Under the pieces are notes generated by a model, which saw only the letters and a list, made by a program, of their open reading frames with translations, was not told the origin of the DNA and did not search any database. From a virus: a DNA stretch of 64,000 nt. Location: positions 1-64,000 of IMG/VR virus record IMGVR_UViG_3300030202_002990, one strand, 5' to 3'. This document shows, one piece after another, positions 42,389-60,898 of this stretch (the stretch's first letter is position 1; each line of letters begins with the position of its first letter). A program made the translations under genes and the position numbers.

Positions 42389-43057
42389 TTAAGGTACTAA
42401 AGTTTTATGTAGTTTAGATGGGTTCTCAGTATCTATCACGACAAGAACAGGTGCCTGTGCTGATGTACCACTACCACTTCCTGGTATAATTAGGTAAGCG
42501 TATGAACCATCCTGAAATGGTGAGGTTAAACCATTGTTACCAAAATCTTGTTTGAAGTCAAGAGCACCAATTTCAGAGTTACCATCGTAACCAACTGATG
42601 TTTCAAGACTCATCCAATCGTTTTGTAAAGCGTCATCATCATCGGAAGATGGTGAGAACACATATACGAATTCACTAAGGTCATCTGTATAAGATTCTTT
42701 TTGGTCAAGGATAGTTTCTACATATGCTTCAAGTGTTTCGTCTGTAGATGCATCTTCGGATAAATCAACACCACCAACGGCGACATCATACTTTTCTTGT
42801 CCTGGAAATCTTCCTTTTCCTTCTTCAGATAATGTTTGGTTATAAAAGTTGTTTGCTACAGTTAAGATTTTATCAATGTTTGCCATTGTCTTTTTCTCTT
42901 TAGCACCTGCACCAACTGCACCAAATTTTGGAGCGGCTGTTGTAGCTAATGTAGCCATCATTGCAGTAGTAACAGCGAATTCAGCTAGTGAATTACCATT
43001 AGTACTCTTGAGTTTTCTCATAAAAGATTTTACGAGTTTCTTTATTGTTTCGAACAT
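42389..43057 (-). CDS. Larger prepilin-like protein D
   Basis: 222 residues. A 21-residue basic leader ends in 'KLKSTNG', then NSLAEFAVTTAMMATLATTA: Glu at +5 and a hydrophobic stretch fit a divergent class III signal. The remainder is acidic and beta-rich with no similarity to A-C that I can see. It is the first gene of the pilin set and is preceded by AAGGAG and by a 220-nt regulatory gap. It could be the major subunit with A-C as minor ones, or the reverse. Confidence 0.72.
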   Translation of the reverse strand: MFETIKKLVKSFMRKLKSTNGNSLAEFAVTTAMMATLATTAAPKFGAVGAGAKEKKTMANIDKILTVANNFYNQTLSEEGKGRFPGQEKYDVAVGGVDLSEDASTDETLEAYVETILDQKESYTDDLSEFVYVFSPSSDDDDALQNDWMSLETSVGYDGNSEIGALDFKQDFGNNGLTSPFQDGSYAYLIIPGSGSGTSAQAPVLVVIDTENPSKLHKTLVP

Positions 43058-46086: not shown

Positions 46087-47538
46087 CTATTTTTTATAAA
46101 AAATAAAAATAGGCTCATACTTTAAATAAGTTCCATTAACCTTTACCGAGTTTTTGACATTAGATTGGTCAACTCCGACCATTGAAGTCATCAACATTTT
46201 GAGTTTACCTTGATATTCCCCACCGAGGTTTTCGATTATATCGATACTATCTTGTTCAAGATGGTGGTATTTATCTTTACCGATTTTGATATCGGCGATG
46301 TTCCACAATAAATATCTATCATTCCTTAAACTTTGATATGCATTAGTTAATGTAGGTTTAAGGAAGTTGTCTCTCCAATCATCATACTTAGGATATGCCT
46401 TAAATGATTGTTCTTCATCTTCACTATATTGTTCTCTATCAAAGTAAGGTGGTGATGTAAACACCATATCTAACTTACCTTTGTATTGTTGAAAATCAGG
46501 ATGGTTTCCAATGTGTTCACTACCTTCTTGAAAATAGTGAAATGTATTTTTTTCTTCTTCCCAAAAATTATTACTTTCTAAAACCTCATTGTTAAAGAAA
46601 TTAGCAACATATTCATACCTTGATATACCTACCTCATCGATAAAATTATCTGTGTTTGGGTCTGTTCCAATATAATGTATTCTTTTTAATGAAGACATAG
46701 CACCTAATATTCTACCACCCCAACCACTTGATGGGTCGTAGATATTTAATTGTTTGGGTTCGAGTTCATTGATATTAATATGGTCTGTAAATCTTTCATA
46801 CAAATATCTGGCTGTCAATGGTGGAAAGTTTACAGCAGGTTGTCCTAATCCTAATCTAAAAGCTTGTATACCAGCTGGGAATAACTTCAACTTAATTTGT
46901 TTGGGGTTTCTTAAAACATTCCTAACCAAGAATTTATATGTATCACCATCTAATTCTTTTGGTAGATTGGTTTTATGTTTATCATCTAACTTCTCTACTT
47001 CCTCAACTGATAAAGTCTTATACATACTTTCTACAGCGTTATGTTTGTGTTGTACGATAAAGAAGTTTTCAGGTATCTCTTCACCATCTAAGACACACTT
47101 TGACCAATTATACATTGAATCTCTTTTTAATATTCTCAGTATAACTTTTTCAAACTTATGTTTATACTCATCAGTAAACCAATCATAGATACTACCATTC
47201 TGAACACGAGTCTTTAACATCGTGGGAAAGAATTGATTAACACTACTAGCATGTTTATTATAATTCTTAATTACATTTTTATTACCATCATCATCGTGGA
47301 TTAAAAATTTATTGTGAACATCATACTCTCTAAGTTTTTTAAAGTTCTTTTTTATAACTTTGGTATTGGAACCGATAGTTGGTGGAATACCCTTATCATC
47401 CCATTCAGATATAATAAAACTTCTAAGTTTTTCAATCCATTCAGAAGTTTCTTTTTCGTTCATATATAGTAATTCCTCAAAGTTGATGTTTACATCACTT
47501 TCAAGCAAATTACTTCTTTCATAATAGTATTTTTTCAT
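46087..47538 (-). CDS. DNA methyltransferase-like protein (SPPY motif)
   Basis: 483 residues. A helical N-terminal half of 230 residues has no recognised domain. The catalytic part has 'YDPSSGWGGRILGAMS' (267-282; AdoMet-binding) and 'MVFTSPPYFDRE' (358-369; the catalytic S/D/N-PPY motif of N6-adenine or N4-cytosine enzymes). No nuclease gene is adjacent, so it looks like an orphan modifier. Protection from host restriction is a likely role. Confidence 0.75.
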   Translation of the reverse strand: MKKYYYERSNLLESDVNINFEELLYMNEKETSEWIEKLRSFIISEWDDKGIPPTIGSNTKVIKKNFKKLREYDVHNKFLIHDDDGNKNVIKNYNKHASSVNQFFPTMLKTRVQNGSIYDWFTDEYKHKFEKVILRILKRDSMYNWSKCVLDGEEIPENFFIVQHKHNAVESMYKTLSVEEVEKLDDKHKTNLPKELDGDTYKFLVRNVLRNPKQIKLKLFPAGIQAFRLGLGQPAVNFPPLTARYLYERFTDHININELEPKQLNIYDPSSGWGGRILGAMSSLKRIHYIGTDPNTDNFIDEVGISRYEYVANFFNNEVLESNNFWEEEKNTFHYFQEGSEHIGNHPDFQQYKGKLDMVFTSPPYFDREQYSEDEEQSFKAYPKYDDWRDNFLKPTLTNAYQSLRNDRYLLWNIADIKIGKDKYHHLEQDSIDIIENLGGEYQGKLKMLMTSMVGVDQSNVKNSVKVNGTYLKYEPIFIFYKK

Positions 47539-47592
47539 ATATAGAATTTACAACTTTTTATAACCATTTACAAGTGTTTTCTTGCTGTTTTG

Positions 47593-48005
47593 TGGAGGTG
47601 TGGGGATTCGAACCCCAGTCCTGTTTATTATTAATATTAAGTCATTCACAGTTTAGTTAGGTTACTACCCTCTGAGAAGTTACCTACAAACCACCAACTA
47701 TTTTCTTGGATAGCTCCGTATGTTCTTTTATACTCATAACATGAGGAGTTGATGTCTAACTTATTTTATGACCGAGTGTTAGACAACTCAGTAACTTATG
47801 CGTAAGCGTAAGTTGGTTGGTCATTCTGAACAGGAGTGACAAAGTTGTCAAATCCCATTTCAGCATTGGCTAAATGCCAATCAATGTCCAACCCTTCAAG
47901 CGATTTATCGCCATTTGAGTTTCGTTGGGTTTTATTTAAGAGTTTACCCAAACTCTACTGCACTTAAATATCAACCAATACCAGTCGATTTCCAAGTTCA
48001 CCCCC
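47593..48005 (-). ncRNA. ssrA: Transfer-messenger RNA (tmRNA)
   Basis: 413 nt. The 5' end GGGGGTG pairs with CACCTCC at the 3' end. T-arm is TGGGG-TTCGAAT-CCCCA. The 5' region has the tmRNA-type TCGACTGG. A long P2 helix pairs 'TTGATATTTAAG' with 'CTTAATATTAA'. Pseudoknot PK1 is GAGTTT-GGGT-AAACTC (47955-47940) with loop GGGT pairing to ACCC (47930-47927). A 14-nt gap then leads to a resume codon candidate GGC at 47912. That frame runs 38 codons to TAA (47798-47796) and ends TPVQNDQPTYAYA, a hydrophobic Ala-ended tag. A PK2-like stem TGTCTAAC/GTTAGACA follows. CCA is not encoded. The tag start is less certain than the gene. Confidence 0.93.
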
Positions 48006-48015
48006 ATATTAAATA

Positions 48016-48156
48016 TCATTGTTCTTCATCAAAATATTCCGAGAAATCGTCTCCCTCTCCCTCGTATCGTAGGGTTTCGATAAGTTCACGAACTAAATCC
48101 CAATCTTTACTTTCAAGGGCCTGTCTTAAAGCCTCGATTATTTTTTCTACTGACAT
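48016..48156 (-). CDS. 46-aa acidic peptide upstream of tmRNA
   Basis: MSVEKIIEALRQALESKDWD continues to '...GDDFSEYFDEEQ'. Amphipathic helices and an acidic end. AGGAG lies about 10 nt before the ATG. It ends 10 nt before the tmRNA 5' end, so both may come from one transcript. Function unknown. Confidence 0.7.
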   Translation of the reverse strand: MSVEKIIEALRQALESKDWDLVRELIETLRYEGEGDDFSEYFDEEQ

Positions 48157-48751: not shown

Positions 48752-49279
48752 CTAATCCATTAAAAATATTTCTTGTGAGTCTATCAATGTAGACTCTATA
48801 CTCCAATATAATTTCATCCAACTACCACTACCCTTATTTTGCATTACTTTTACAGGTGTTAATGTGTTGTAGAAATAACCTAAACTATCAACCATAGAAA
48901 CTTTATCTGTTGTCCATCTCAATGTATCTACATTTACATCCATCGTATCTCTGTTACCAAAGTTATCATACCATATAGCTTTATTTCTTCTGTTTGGTAA
49001 TAATTTGTAATGTCCACTTGAATCATCCTCATCCCAATACATATTACTCCACCAATGAACAACTAATCTATCAACAGGTACACCATCTCCTGATTCTAAA
49101 TGTCCCCATATTGGTGCTGGTGTAATCCATAGATTGTCTTGTATTTCAATTCTATTTACTCTTAACATCGTTACGATTATATTGGCTTCATTTGGTTCTT
49201 CTATTCTATCATCACAAGTAACCGTTAATGTAGTTAATATCAGAACAATCCAAATTATTTTATTCAATTTATTCTCCAA
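48752..49279 (-). CDS. Lipoprotein of unknown function
   Basis: 175 residues. 'IIWIVLILTTLTVTC' then DDR is a lipoprotein signal with the Cys at residue 23. The mature part is beta-rich and has 'RNKAIWYDNFGNRDTMDVN', similar to a segment of the lipoprotein at 19789-20376, so the two are probably distant paralogues. Overlaps the IMP dehydrogenase gene end. Confidence 0.72.
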   Translation of the reverse strand: MENKLNKIIWIVLILTTLTVTCDDRIEEPNEANIIVTMLRVNRIEIQDNLWITPAPIWGHLESGDGVPVDRLVVHWWSNMYWDEDDSSGHYKLLPNRRNKAIWYDNFGNRDTMDVNVDTLRWTTDKVSMVDSLGYFYNTLTPVKVMQNKGSGSWMKLYWSIESTLIDSQEIFLMD

Positions 49280-50465
49280 TCAAATGTGGTCTCGCCTCTA
49301 ATTGTCCTGCACTTGTTACTTCTACAAACTCTACTTTACTATGAAACTCAGAAAGATTGTTAGCACCAACATAACTGAAACTGCTAGAAATTCCATCTTT
49401 AATATCTGATAATATTCTATAGACTTTCCCCTTATACGGTATAACTTTATGATTCCCTTCAACATTCTTATCATTTCCTTTTGAGTCCCTTGAGGCGGAA
49501 CCCCTATACTTTTTAAATAATTTTTCGTTAGGCCATTGTCCTTGTTTTTCTATTTGACCTGGACTTTCTTTGGTGCCCGAAAGTAACGAACCAACCATGA
49601 TGGTGTCAGCTCCACAACCAAGTCCTTTAGCCACATCACCCACATTCCGAATACCACCATCAGCAATGATAGGAATATCCCAATCGTCAGCAACGGAACA
49701 AACATCAATAAGAGTAGTAACCTGAGGTAATCCAACACCAGTCCTGATTCTTGTTTCACATAGTGAGCCGTTACCGATTCCCACTCTGATGGCGTCAGCA
49801 CCCTTTTCAGCCAGAAATCGTGCCCCATCACTTGTTGCGATGTTTCCTGCGACAACCTCGACATTCGATATTTTACTTTTGATTTTCTCAATGGCTTCTC
49901 CTACATTCTTATGATGTCCGTGTGCTACATCAATAAGTAGTACATTACAACCGTTTAAAACTAATTCTTTAGCCCTCTCTAAGTAGTCTCCCTTGACTCC
50001 AATAGCTGCACATAAGGGTCTTTTACTCCAATACTCTTCATCTTTCTTAGCCTCATCTGCAAACCATAGTAATTCTTCTAAATCTTCAAAATCAGATTTT
50101 GTTGGTGGATGGTTCCAAGACATTACACCTCTGTACCAATCTTCATATACTCTATGGTGGTCGGTTCTATCTTCATCCTTGTCGCCTATGTTATACCAAC
50201 TATCCCATTGTCTCCAAACTCTTTTCATTTGTTCGGTTTGTTTTTCAATACTTTGAAATCTATGTATAACACCAACACCGCCTTGGTCTAACATTTCAGA
50301 AGCCATCTTGTATTCTGTAACCGTATCCATAGGAGACGCCACTATTGGTACACTCATTGTTGTGTTTTTTGTAAACCTTGTAGAGAGGTCTATATCTTCA
50401 CGAGATAAAACTTCTGAGTATTTTGGGACGATGTTTACATCATCATATGTTAAATATTTTTTCAA
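49269..50465 (-). CDS. guaB: IMP dehydrogenase / GMP reductase family enzyme
   Basis: 398 residues. '[15 protein letters not shown]' and '[13 protein letters not shown]' open the TIM barrel. The catalytic loop is '[20 protein letters not shown]' (Cys236). '[16 protein letters not shown]' and the flap '[13 protein letters not shown]' follow. The CBS pair present in most bacterial GuaB is replaced by about 60 residues of unrelated charged sequence (85-148). It would divert IMP to XMP for guanine nucleotide supply; a GMP reductase function cannot be fully excluded. The start is TTG, directly after the upstream stop. Confidence 0.85.
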
Positions 50466-51044: not shown

Positions 51045-51193
51045 ACATTCCACTTCTTATCATCTTGATATTCTTTTTTCTTGGTTATACCATCATACAA
51101 CCATTTAATATACCATCTTACTCTTGCACCAAGTTCCATATCATTAGGGTATTTATCAACCATATCTCTTATTATTTGTCTTACACTTTTCAT
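51041..51193 (-). CDS. Hypothetical 50-aa protein
   Basis: [20 protein letters not shown] then '[15 protein letters not shown]'. Soluble and basic. The start overlaps the end of the deformylase gene by ATGA. Confidence 0.65.
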
Positions 51194-51777
51194 AAGCAAC
51201 ACCTTTTATATTTTTTACCACTACCACAATAACAAGGTTCATTACGACCAATCGATTTTTTTGTTACTATTGGTTTTGGTTTATTCTCTCTATCATGAAT
51301 AGTATTACCCATTAGGTGGTCAATTTCGTGTTGGACACATATAGCCTCTAACAATCTTTGTTCTTGGTCTTGCTTCTTACCGTCTTCTTCCCAAGTTCCT
51401 TTAACTTCTTTACCAGTTTCTACTCCACTAAAATACCATTCACTTTCTTCTTGTTCTGTTTTAATAATTATGTTCTTGTATCTTTTTGTGTGTAAACCTC
51501 GTTTTGGATAACTTAAACAGCCTTCGTAGTAATCTACTTCGTCCCATTGTTCCTTGATTTTTGGGTTAATGAGAACCAAAGGTTCAATAACATTGACAAC
51601 GGCCACTTGTGCATCAATTCCCACTTGATTCGCTGCCAACCCAATACCGTCCCCTCTTTTGTTAAGTATCTGAAATAATTCTGTGGCAATAACTCTTCCT
51701 TCTTCAACCGACACCTCTTTTAATTTTTTATTAATTAAGATATTACTATTTTTTGTACAATCGATTACTTTACGCAT
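51190..51777 (-). CDS. def: Peptide deformylase with C-terminal SEC-C zinc motif
   Basis: 195 residues. All three deformylase motifs are present: GIGLAANQ (44-51), EGCLS (85-89, metal Cys) and HEIDH (150-154, two metal His and the catalytic Glu). A SEC-C motif '[18 protein letters not shown]' (177-194) is appended. It removes the formyl group from nascent proteins. Phage deformylases are known from cyanophages; the SEC-C tail could tether it to ribosomes or SecB-like partners. It overlaps upstream and downstream small genes. Confidence 0.92.
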
Positions 51778-60341: not shown

Positions 60342-60425
60342 ATTAATGAGGCCACCCTTACGCTACACACTTTCCCGTTGCTTTGATTATATGTGAAAAG
60401 AACGGAAAAACACCTCCTCATTAAT
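60342..60425 (-). promoter_or_regulatory. Structured RNA element between hsp20 and the next gene
   Basis: ATTAATGAGG and CCTCATTAAT close an 84-nt domain with a perfect 10-bp outer stem. An inner stem TTTCCGTT/AACGGGAAA (one bulged G) is nested in it. It begins at the hsp20 stop codon and ends 17 nt before the next start. It could be a processing signal, attenuator or small RNA. Confidence 0.55.
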
Positions 60426-60898
60426 TATGAGATTTTTACTGAAGTCCTCTTTGGAAGTTCAGGTTCGGTTTTAGGAATATCAATGGATAGTAAACCATCT
60501 TTAAAAGATGCTTTAATATTATCTCCATCCAATAGTTCACCCAATTCGAATGAACGCTTAAATGATGAATGTTTTAATTCCCTACGAATAACCTTGGCTC
60601 CCTCATCATCAAACAAACCATGTTTGTCACCTGAGATAGTTAATACACCATCTTCGACTTCTACTGATAAGTCTTTTTTATCCAAACCAGGTATCTCTGC
60701 TACTACACCGATTTTATCATCGTATTCGTATACATTTACCTTTGGATATGCTGAACCTTGAAATGGTTTAACACCAACGGACTTGTTAATATCAGGAAAG
60801 TTACTTTCCACGATTTGGTCAAACATCCTATCAAATGGTGTTAAAAAAGAATCCCTATCGATTATAGGGAATGCACGATTTAAAACTACTTTAGTCAT
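60425..60898 (-). CDS. hsp20: Small heat-shock protein Hsp20
   Basis: 157 residues. Alpha-crystallin domain: 'NVYEYDDKIGVVAEIPGLDK', 'VEDGVLTISGDKHG' and 'ASFKDGLLSIDIPKTEPE' with a short tail. ATP-independent chaperone. hsp20 genes are common in cyanophages and other T4-like marine phages. AAGGAG precedes the ATG. The 149-nt upstream gap is extremely A/T-rich and includes TATAAT-like sequence near 60993. Confidence 0.95.
   Translation of the reverse strand: MTKVVLNRAFPIIDRDSFLTPFDRMFDQIVESNFPDINKSVGVKPFQGSAYPKVNVYEYDDKIGVVAEIPGLDKKDLSVEVEDGVLTISGDKHGLFDDEGAKVIRRELKHSSFKRSFELGELLDGDNIKASFKDGLLSIDIPKTEPELPKRTSVKIS

Follow-up and report, generated by a model that had tools for sequence, protein, structure and literature searches.

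A one-piece tmRNA gene in an uncultured phage

The stretch of DNA that we analyzed (the window) comprises bases 1-64000 of a virus record of 82,353 bases. At 47590..48005 on the minus strand, it holds what is almost certainly a complete, one-piece tmRNA (ssrA) gene. The Rfam covariance model for tmRNA (RF00023) matches 48005..47590 (-) from end to end (model positions 1-374; E = 1.1e-31), with a score of 85.3 bits as compared to a gathering score of 47. This is the sole RNA family match from an Rfam scan of the window. (A second match to the tmRNA model, at 77.6 kb in the record, turned out to be a tRNA-Ala.) An earlier note on this DNA had proposed a complete phage tmRNA here, to be checked with ARAGORN or a covariance model. 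The covariance model bears this out; ARAGORN does not call any tmRNA in the window.

Most of the expected parts can be located individually on the minus strand. The 5' acceptor strand GGGGGUG (47999..48005) pairs with CACCUCC (47600-47594). Together with a canonical T arm (UGGGG-UUCGAAU-CCCCA, 47617-47601), the 3' acceptor strand occupies 47594..47617, as seen in the sequence and in the Rfam alignment. The acceptor stem includes a G3-U70 pair, which is the identity pair for alanine. The chargeable part ends with a discriminator A at 47593, which is followed by CAA instead of CCA, so the CCA end is not encoded; the same is true of the bacterial ssrA genes of the likely host clade. The sequence and the Rfam alignment also place PK1 (GAGUUU/AAACUC and UUGGGU/ACCCAA) at 47925..47955. 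Farther along, the P5 hairpin (47793..47814), which covaries strongly, encloses the end of the tag frame together with its stop codon. In PK2 (47754..47792), 100% and 97.8% of cells are paired in the alignment of relatives, and 10 of 13 pairs have double changes. Overall, the gene has a tRNA-like domain, PK1, an adenine at position -4 before an in-frame resume codon, a stop codon within P5, and pseudoknots after it, of which PK2 was delimited individually. Judging from these sequence features, it most likely works as a tmRNA.

We found no promoter for the tmRNA gene that could be distinguished from chance. Directly upstream is a 46-amino-acid open reading frame (MSVEKIIEALRQALESKDWDLVRELIETLRYEGEGDDFSEYFDEEQ, 48016-48156 (-)), which has a good ribosome binding site by eye and ends 10 nt before the 5' end of the tmRNA. 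The tmRNA is probably processed out of a longer transcript.

tmRNA genes in phages are not new. Bxz1-like mycobacteriophages, the mycobacteriophage Wildcat, Bacillus phage G, Streptomyces phages, and the marine phage Melnitz likewise carry ssrA. The earlier note described such genes as rare, which is overstated: a published survey found them in 402 of 18,146 phage genomes (PMC9004378). The tmRNA of Melnitz is a two-piece RNA related to that of SAR11 (PMC9004378), while the tmRNA in the window is one-piece.

A long tag that is conserved among phages

Translation of 47912-47796 confirmed the tag that the earlier note had read from this gene. The tag frame (47796..47912, minus strand) runs from the resume codon GGC to the stop codon TAA and encodes 38 amino acids, GDKSLEGLDIDWHLANAEMGFDNFVTPVQNDQPTYAYA-stop, ending with PTYAYA-TAA. 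The earlier note expected the resume codon about 14 nt after PK1; PK1 is not displaced, but the distance is actually 12 nt. The corresponding distance in E. coli is also 12 nt, and there the frame is set by the adenine at -4 (A86; PMC2481249).

We then looked for relatives of this gene. Using the gene just downstream of the tmRNA (46087-47538) as the query, we identified 72 related loci in IMG/VR. Among the close relatives (at least 62% identity) whose upstream sequence is long enough, nearly all carry a tmRNA in the corresponding position. Two loci, at 71% and 76% identity (L037 and L040), have no tmRNA match over the cut-off, and the more distant relatives that we scanned (37-44% identity) have no tmRNA beside the neighboring gene. 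A search of IMG/VR with the tag alignment gave 129 stretches that encode a relative, of which 80 were kept. In total, there are 61 distinct genes with long tags, and the phages that carry them form a group that is uncultured and mainly marine. Against named phage records, the nucleotide matches were all short and fell mostly in the T arm, and the neighboring gene has matches at only 25-30% identity (for example, in phages of Bacteroides, Vibrio, and Staphylococcus). When run on the phage relatives, ARAGORN either missed the gene or placed the start of the tag too late, so tmRNA genes of this kind will be missed or mis-started by this tool.

These relatives support the identification of the gene. 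We do not think that the tmRNA is a chance match, because the gene folds with z = -4.4, related loci have a tmRNA in the matching position next to the shared neighboring gene, P5 and PK2 covary, and all 61 distinct relatives have the adenine at -4.

The reading frame is also kept in all 61. Their resume codons are GGC, AGC, GGT, or GAC, and their tags have 34-40 residues. These tags share a layout: the front block is SLxGLx[IV]DWHLA, the middle is variable, and the C-terminal part is QP[ST]YAYA(A). The C-terminal end varies (YAYA, YAYAA, YANA, HVYA, or YALAA), but every tag finishes with alanine, and with few exceptions the end retains its small and hydrophobic or aromatic character. Tags of this length are unusual. 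In a 2025 database of 97,179 tmRNAs, the commonest tag length is 10 amino acids (PMC11915505). The tag of Streptomyces phages, ANSKFAFALAA, is short, in contrast to the tags of this phage group, which were absent from the bacterial genomes that we searched. In the open literature, we did not find any description of a tag that is long, conserved as protein, and confined to phages. Since phage tmRNAs were already known, it is this long, conserved, phage-only tag module that is the new element. The earlier note missed that a phage group has conserved this tag as a long peptide, that it was not seen in bacterial ssrA genes, and that RNA structure overlies it.

Protein-level selection and RNA structure in the same bases

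Several comparisons indicate that the front block is selected as a protein. First, in the columns for L6 and I11-A16, which include the DWHLA codons at the core of the block (47868..47882, minus strand), pS is 0.55 and pN is 0.027, for an in-frame pN/pS of around 0.05. The nonsynonymous variants in these seven columns are changes of I to V, changes of L to M, I, or F, and one change of A to F. Second, across codon columns 4-16, pS and pN are 0.351 and 0.117 in frame, as compared to 0.085 and 0.133 or 0.155 and 0.126 in the other two frames. Third, changes counted along a tree were 61 synonymous and 8 nonsynonymous for L6 and I11-A16, versus 90 synonymous and 170 nonsynonymous for the middle of the tag. 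(The counts are approximate because we picked the seven columns after viewing the alignment, which was also the basis for the tree.) The front block is also more strongly conserved than the end of the tag. We compared the front block to PDB chains, to other phage proteins, and to proteins from the candidate host family, and nothing matched above chance, so we rejected the idea that the block is a copy of one of these.

According to the alignment, the tag DNA is additionally under RNA constraint, from a hairpin at the resume codon, an arm within the tag, and P5, and part of the conservation of its codons is due to the RNA. The resume hairpin (GCGA/UCGC, 47900..47911, minus strand) starts within the resume codon. 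It is paired in 99% and 97.5% of cells, and two pairs have double changes. In some relatives, it has changed on both sides, to GUGA/UCAC (L044 and L139/L140) or to ACGAA/UUCGU (L086/L087), and in another (L030) it is retained in a shifted register. The serine codon in this hairpin is TCG in 57 of 61 genes.

A second RNA element, an arm across the tag insert (47815..47893, minus strand), is likely but not certain. The arm would be closed by GGUUGG.CAUU / AAUG.CCAACC, and the region's minimum free energy fold has z = -5.3. The near-invariant closing part (GGUUG and CAACC) shows no covariation. The stem that continues the arm does covary, chiefly at alignment columns 83-153 (36 AU and 15 CG). We consider the arm only likely because RNAalifold, when run by itself, leaves out this outer arm and because 39 of 59 sequences lack pairing between columns 82-154.

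Could the insert be kept mainly as an arm of the tmRNA, with the long peptide as a passenger and all of the function in its C-terminal end? Besides the covariation in both of these RNA elements and the region's strong folding, this explanation would account for the codons in the tag. GGC, GGG, and TCG are rare in this phage (2.4% of glycine codons, 4.7% of glycine codons, and 5.3% of serine codons, respectively), yet they are near-invariant in the tag. Similarly, residues 10 and 35 of the tag tend to vary together as base-pairing partners (D/D, V/Y, or E with S or F). But a constraint on the RNA alone would be blind to the reading frame, so the excess of synonymous changes at L6 and I11-A16, which has no counterpart out of frame, argues against this explanation, and we consider it unlikely.

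The host and a possible role for the tag

What does the host's own tag look like? Among the genomes of 84,980 species, the long tag was found once, on a phage-like contig of 7.5 kb that was binned into the bacterium TMED198 (which is unclassified in the NCBI taxonomy). The bin also has its own ssrA gene, with the tag ADYGYAAAA. The link to this host is based on one metagenome-assembled bin and on the resemblance of tags. We searched 23 relatives of TMED198 from the same family and 60 from the same class, and the tags that we read were 9-10 amino acids long (ADYGYMAAA, ADYGYAAAA, GNYSYSAAA, ADNGYLAAA, and similar). We set aside as doubtful four ARAGORN calls from bacteria of the TMED198 family (L175-L178), in which the odd tag (ENSFTSVNIQDSFILL and similar) is probably in the wrong frame. 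The comparison to host tags that the earlier note called for finds short tags in the candidate hosts and the long tag only on phage or phage-like DNA.

We wondered if the real host might bear the same long tag, so that the phage gene would be a plain copy. With the host still a candidate and many marine lineages yet to be sampled, there is some room for this. Yet none of the 84,980 species had a bacterial ssrA with the long tag (the scan relied on short peptide patterns, which diverged tags might escape), and the relatives from the family and class have short tags, save for the four doubtful calls. We think it quite improbable that the host has the long tag.

Instead, in the simplest history, the phage probably took up an ssrA gene with a short tag from a member of the host's bacterial class and later enlarged it. 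Two of the phage relatives have the short tag GEYQYMAAA (L043:2899-3250 and L042:603-954), which is close to the tags of the candidate host class. An insertion after the first two codons and before the last ten probably added around 27 codons. The direction of this change is not proven, because L043, with its unusual T loop, may be a degenerate copy. (The short-tag form in L042 and L043 could be either ancestral or degenerating.)

The phage would depend on the host's machinery. We found no SmpB (PF01668) in the phage's 82-kb record or in 30 related records, so the phage SmpB that the earlier note suggested looking for did not turn up, and host SmpB would have to serve. (These records may be incomplete.) SmpB is present in 17 of 23 genomes from the candidate host family, and ClpX in 13 of the 17 candidate-host genomes searched. 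SspB (PF04386) was found in none of 33 phages and candidate hosts, while control searches matched it in E. coli and Caulobacter, so a docking partner for the tag, if any, is not SspB.

We propose that, during infection, host alanyl-tRNA synthetase would charge the phage tmRNA with alanine and host SmpB would bind it. The charged tmRNA would enter ribosomes that have stalled on broken or stop-less messages, such as those cut during infection, and would add alanine and the 38 encoded residues to the stalled product. The C-terminal QP[ST]YAYA(A), at the position of the protease signal in the host's ADYGY[MA]AAA, would be read by ClpX or a different AAA+ protease of the host. At the protein level, the front block would be an added recognition element, joined to the C-terminal part by the variable linker. 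Most likely it would dock an adaptor or a second protease site, leading to more disposal, or redirected disposal, of tagged products. The redirection to different proteases that the earlier note raised is likewise an inference. We give this whole account (a working phage ssrA gene with a bipartite tag, including the docking role) a probability of roughly 55%.

The suggestion that the front block docks a protease or an adaptor is made by analogy to two known systems. The E. coli tag AANDENYALAA is the model of a two-part tag, with an adaptor site for SspB in front and a ClpX site at the C-terminus (PMC9382460); it has just 11 residues and uses SspB, in contrast to the phages and candidate hosts here. 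The long ssrA tags of Mollicutes, such as that of Mesoplasma florum (which ends with NYAFA), are also longer than the E. coli tag and also end with Y-A-aromatic-A. These long tags are read by Lon, which is a precedent for reading by another protease, but they belong to bacteria without ClpXP (PMC9382460), whereas most of the candidate hosts have ClpX. More tentatively, the front block could be a targeting peptide that evolved in phages, with the rescue route delivering stalled products to a partner beyond the reach of the host's tag, such as an adaptor, a protease, or the target of an inhibitor.

Alternatively, the tag might protect or re-use products, with the front block inhibiting a bound host factor or with phage proteins being spared the host tag. 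The last residues vary in a way that would not be tolerated in a strict end signal for ClpX, which fits with this idea, as does the stronger conservation of the front block than of the end. On the other hand, the invariant final alanine and the character of the end resemble bacterial degradation tags, and Mollicute tags that end with YAFA are degraded by Lon (PMC9382460). Protection or re-use is clearly unlikely.

If the bipartite tag works as we propose, then phages have rebuilt the trans-translation tag, by fitting a protein-selected module of around 27 residues into a host-type tag, over RNA structure in the same bases. This would be a testable case of a phage altering the fate of stalled proteins, and the tag peptide could be used as bait for a novel protease adaptor in uncultured marine bacteria.

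We also noted other genes in this record. In the window, these are a protein with an IMP dehydrogenase / GMP reductase domain (49269-50465 (-); PF00478, E = 1.5e-107), a peptide deformylase (51190-51777 (-)), an Hsp20-like protein (60425-60898 (-), by eye only), and a protein of 222 amino acids (42389-43057 (-)) whose N-terminal region, NSLAEFAVTTAMMATLATTAAPKFG, resembles a type IV pilin and which is a putative pilin. Beyond the window, by eye, the record encodes adjoining MoxR-like AAA ATPase and VWA-domain proteins (L210:1125-2288 and L210:3191-5341).
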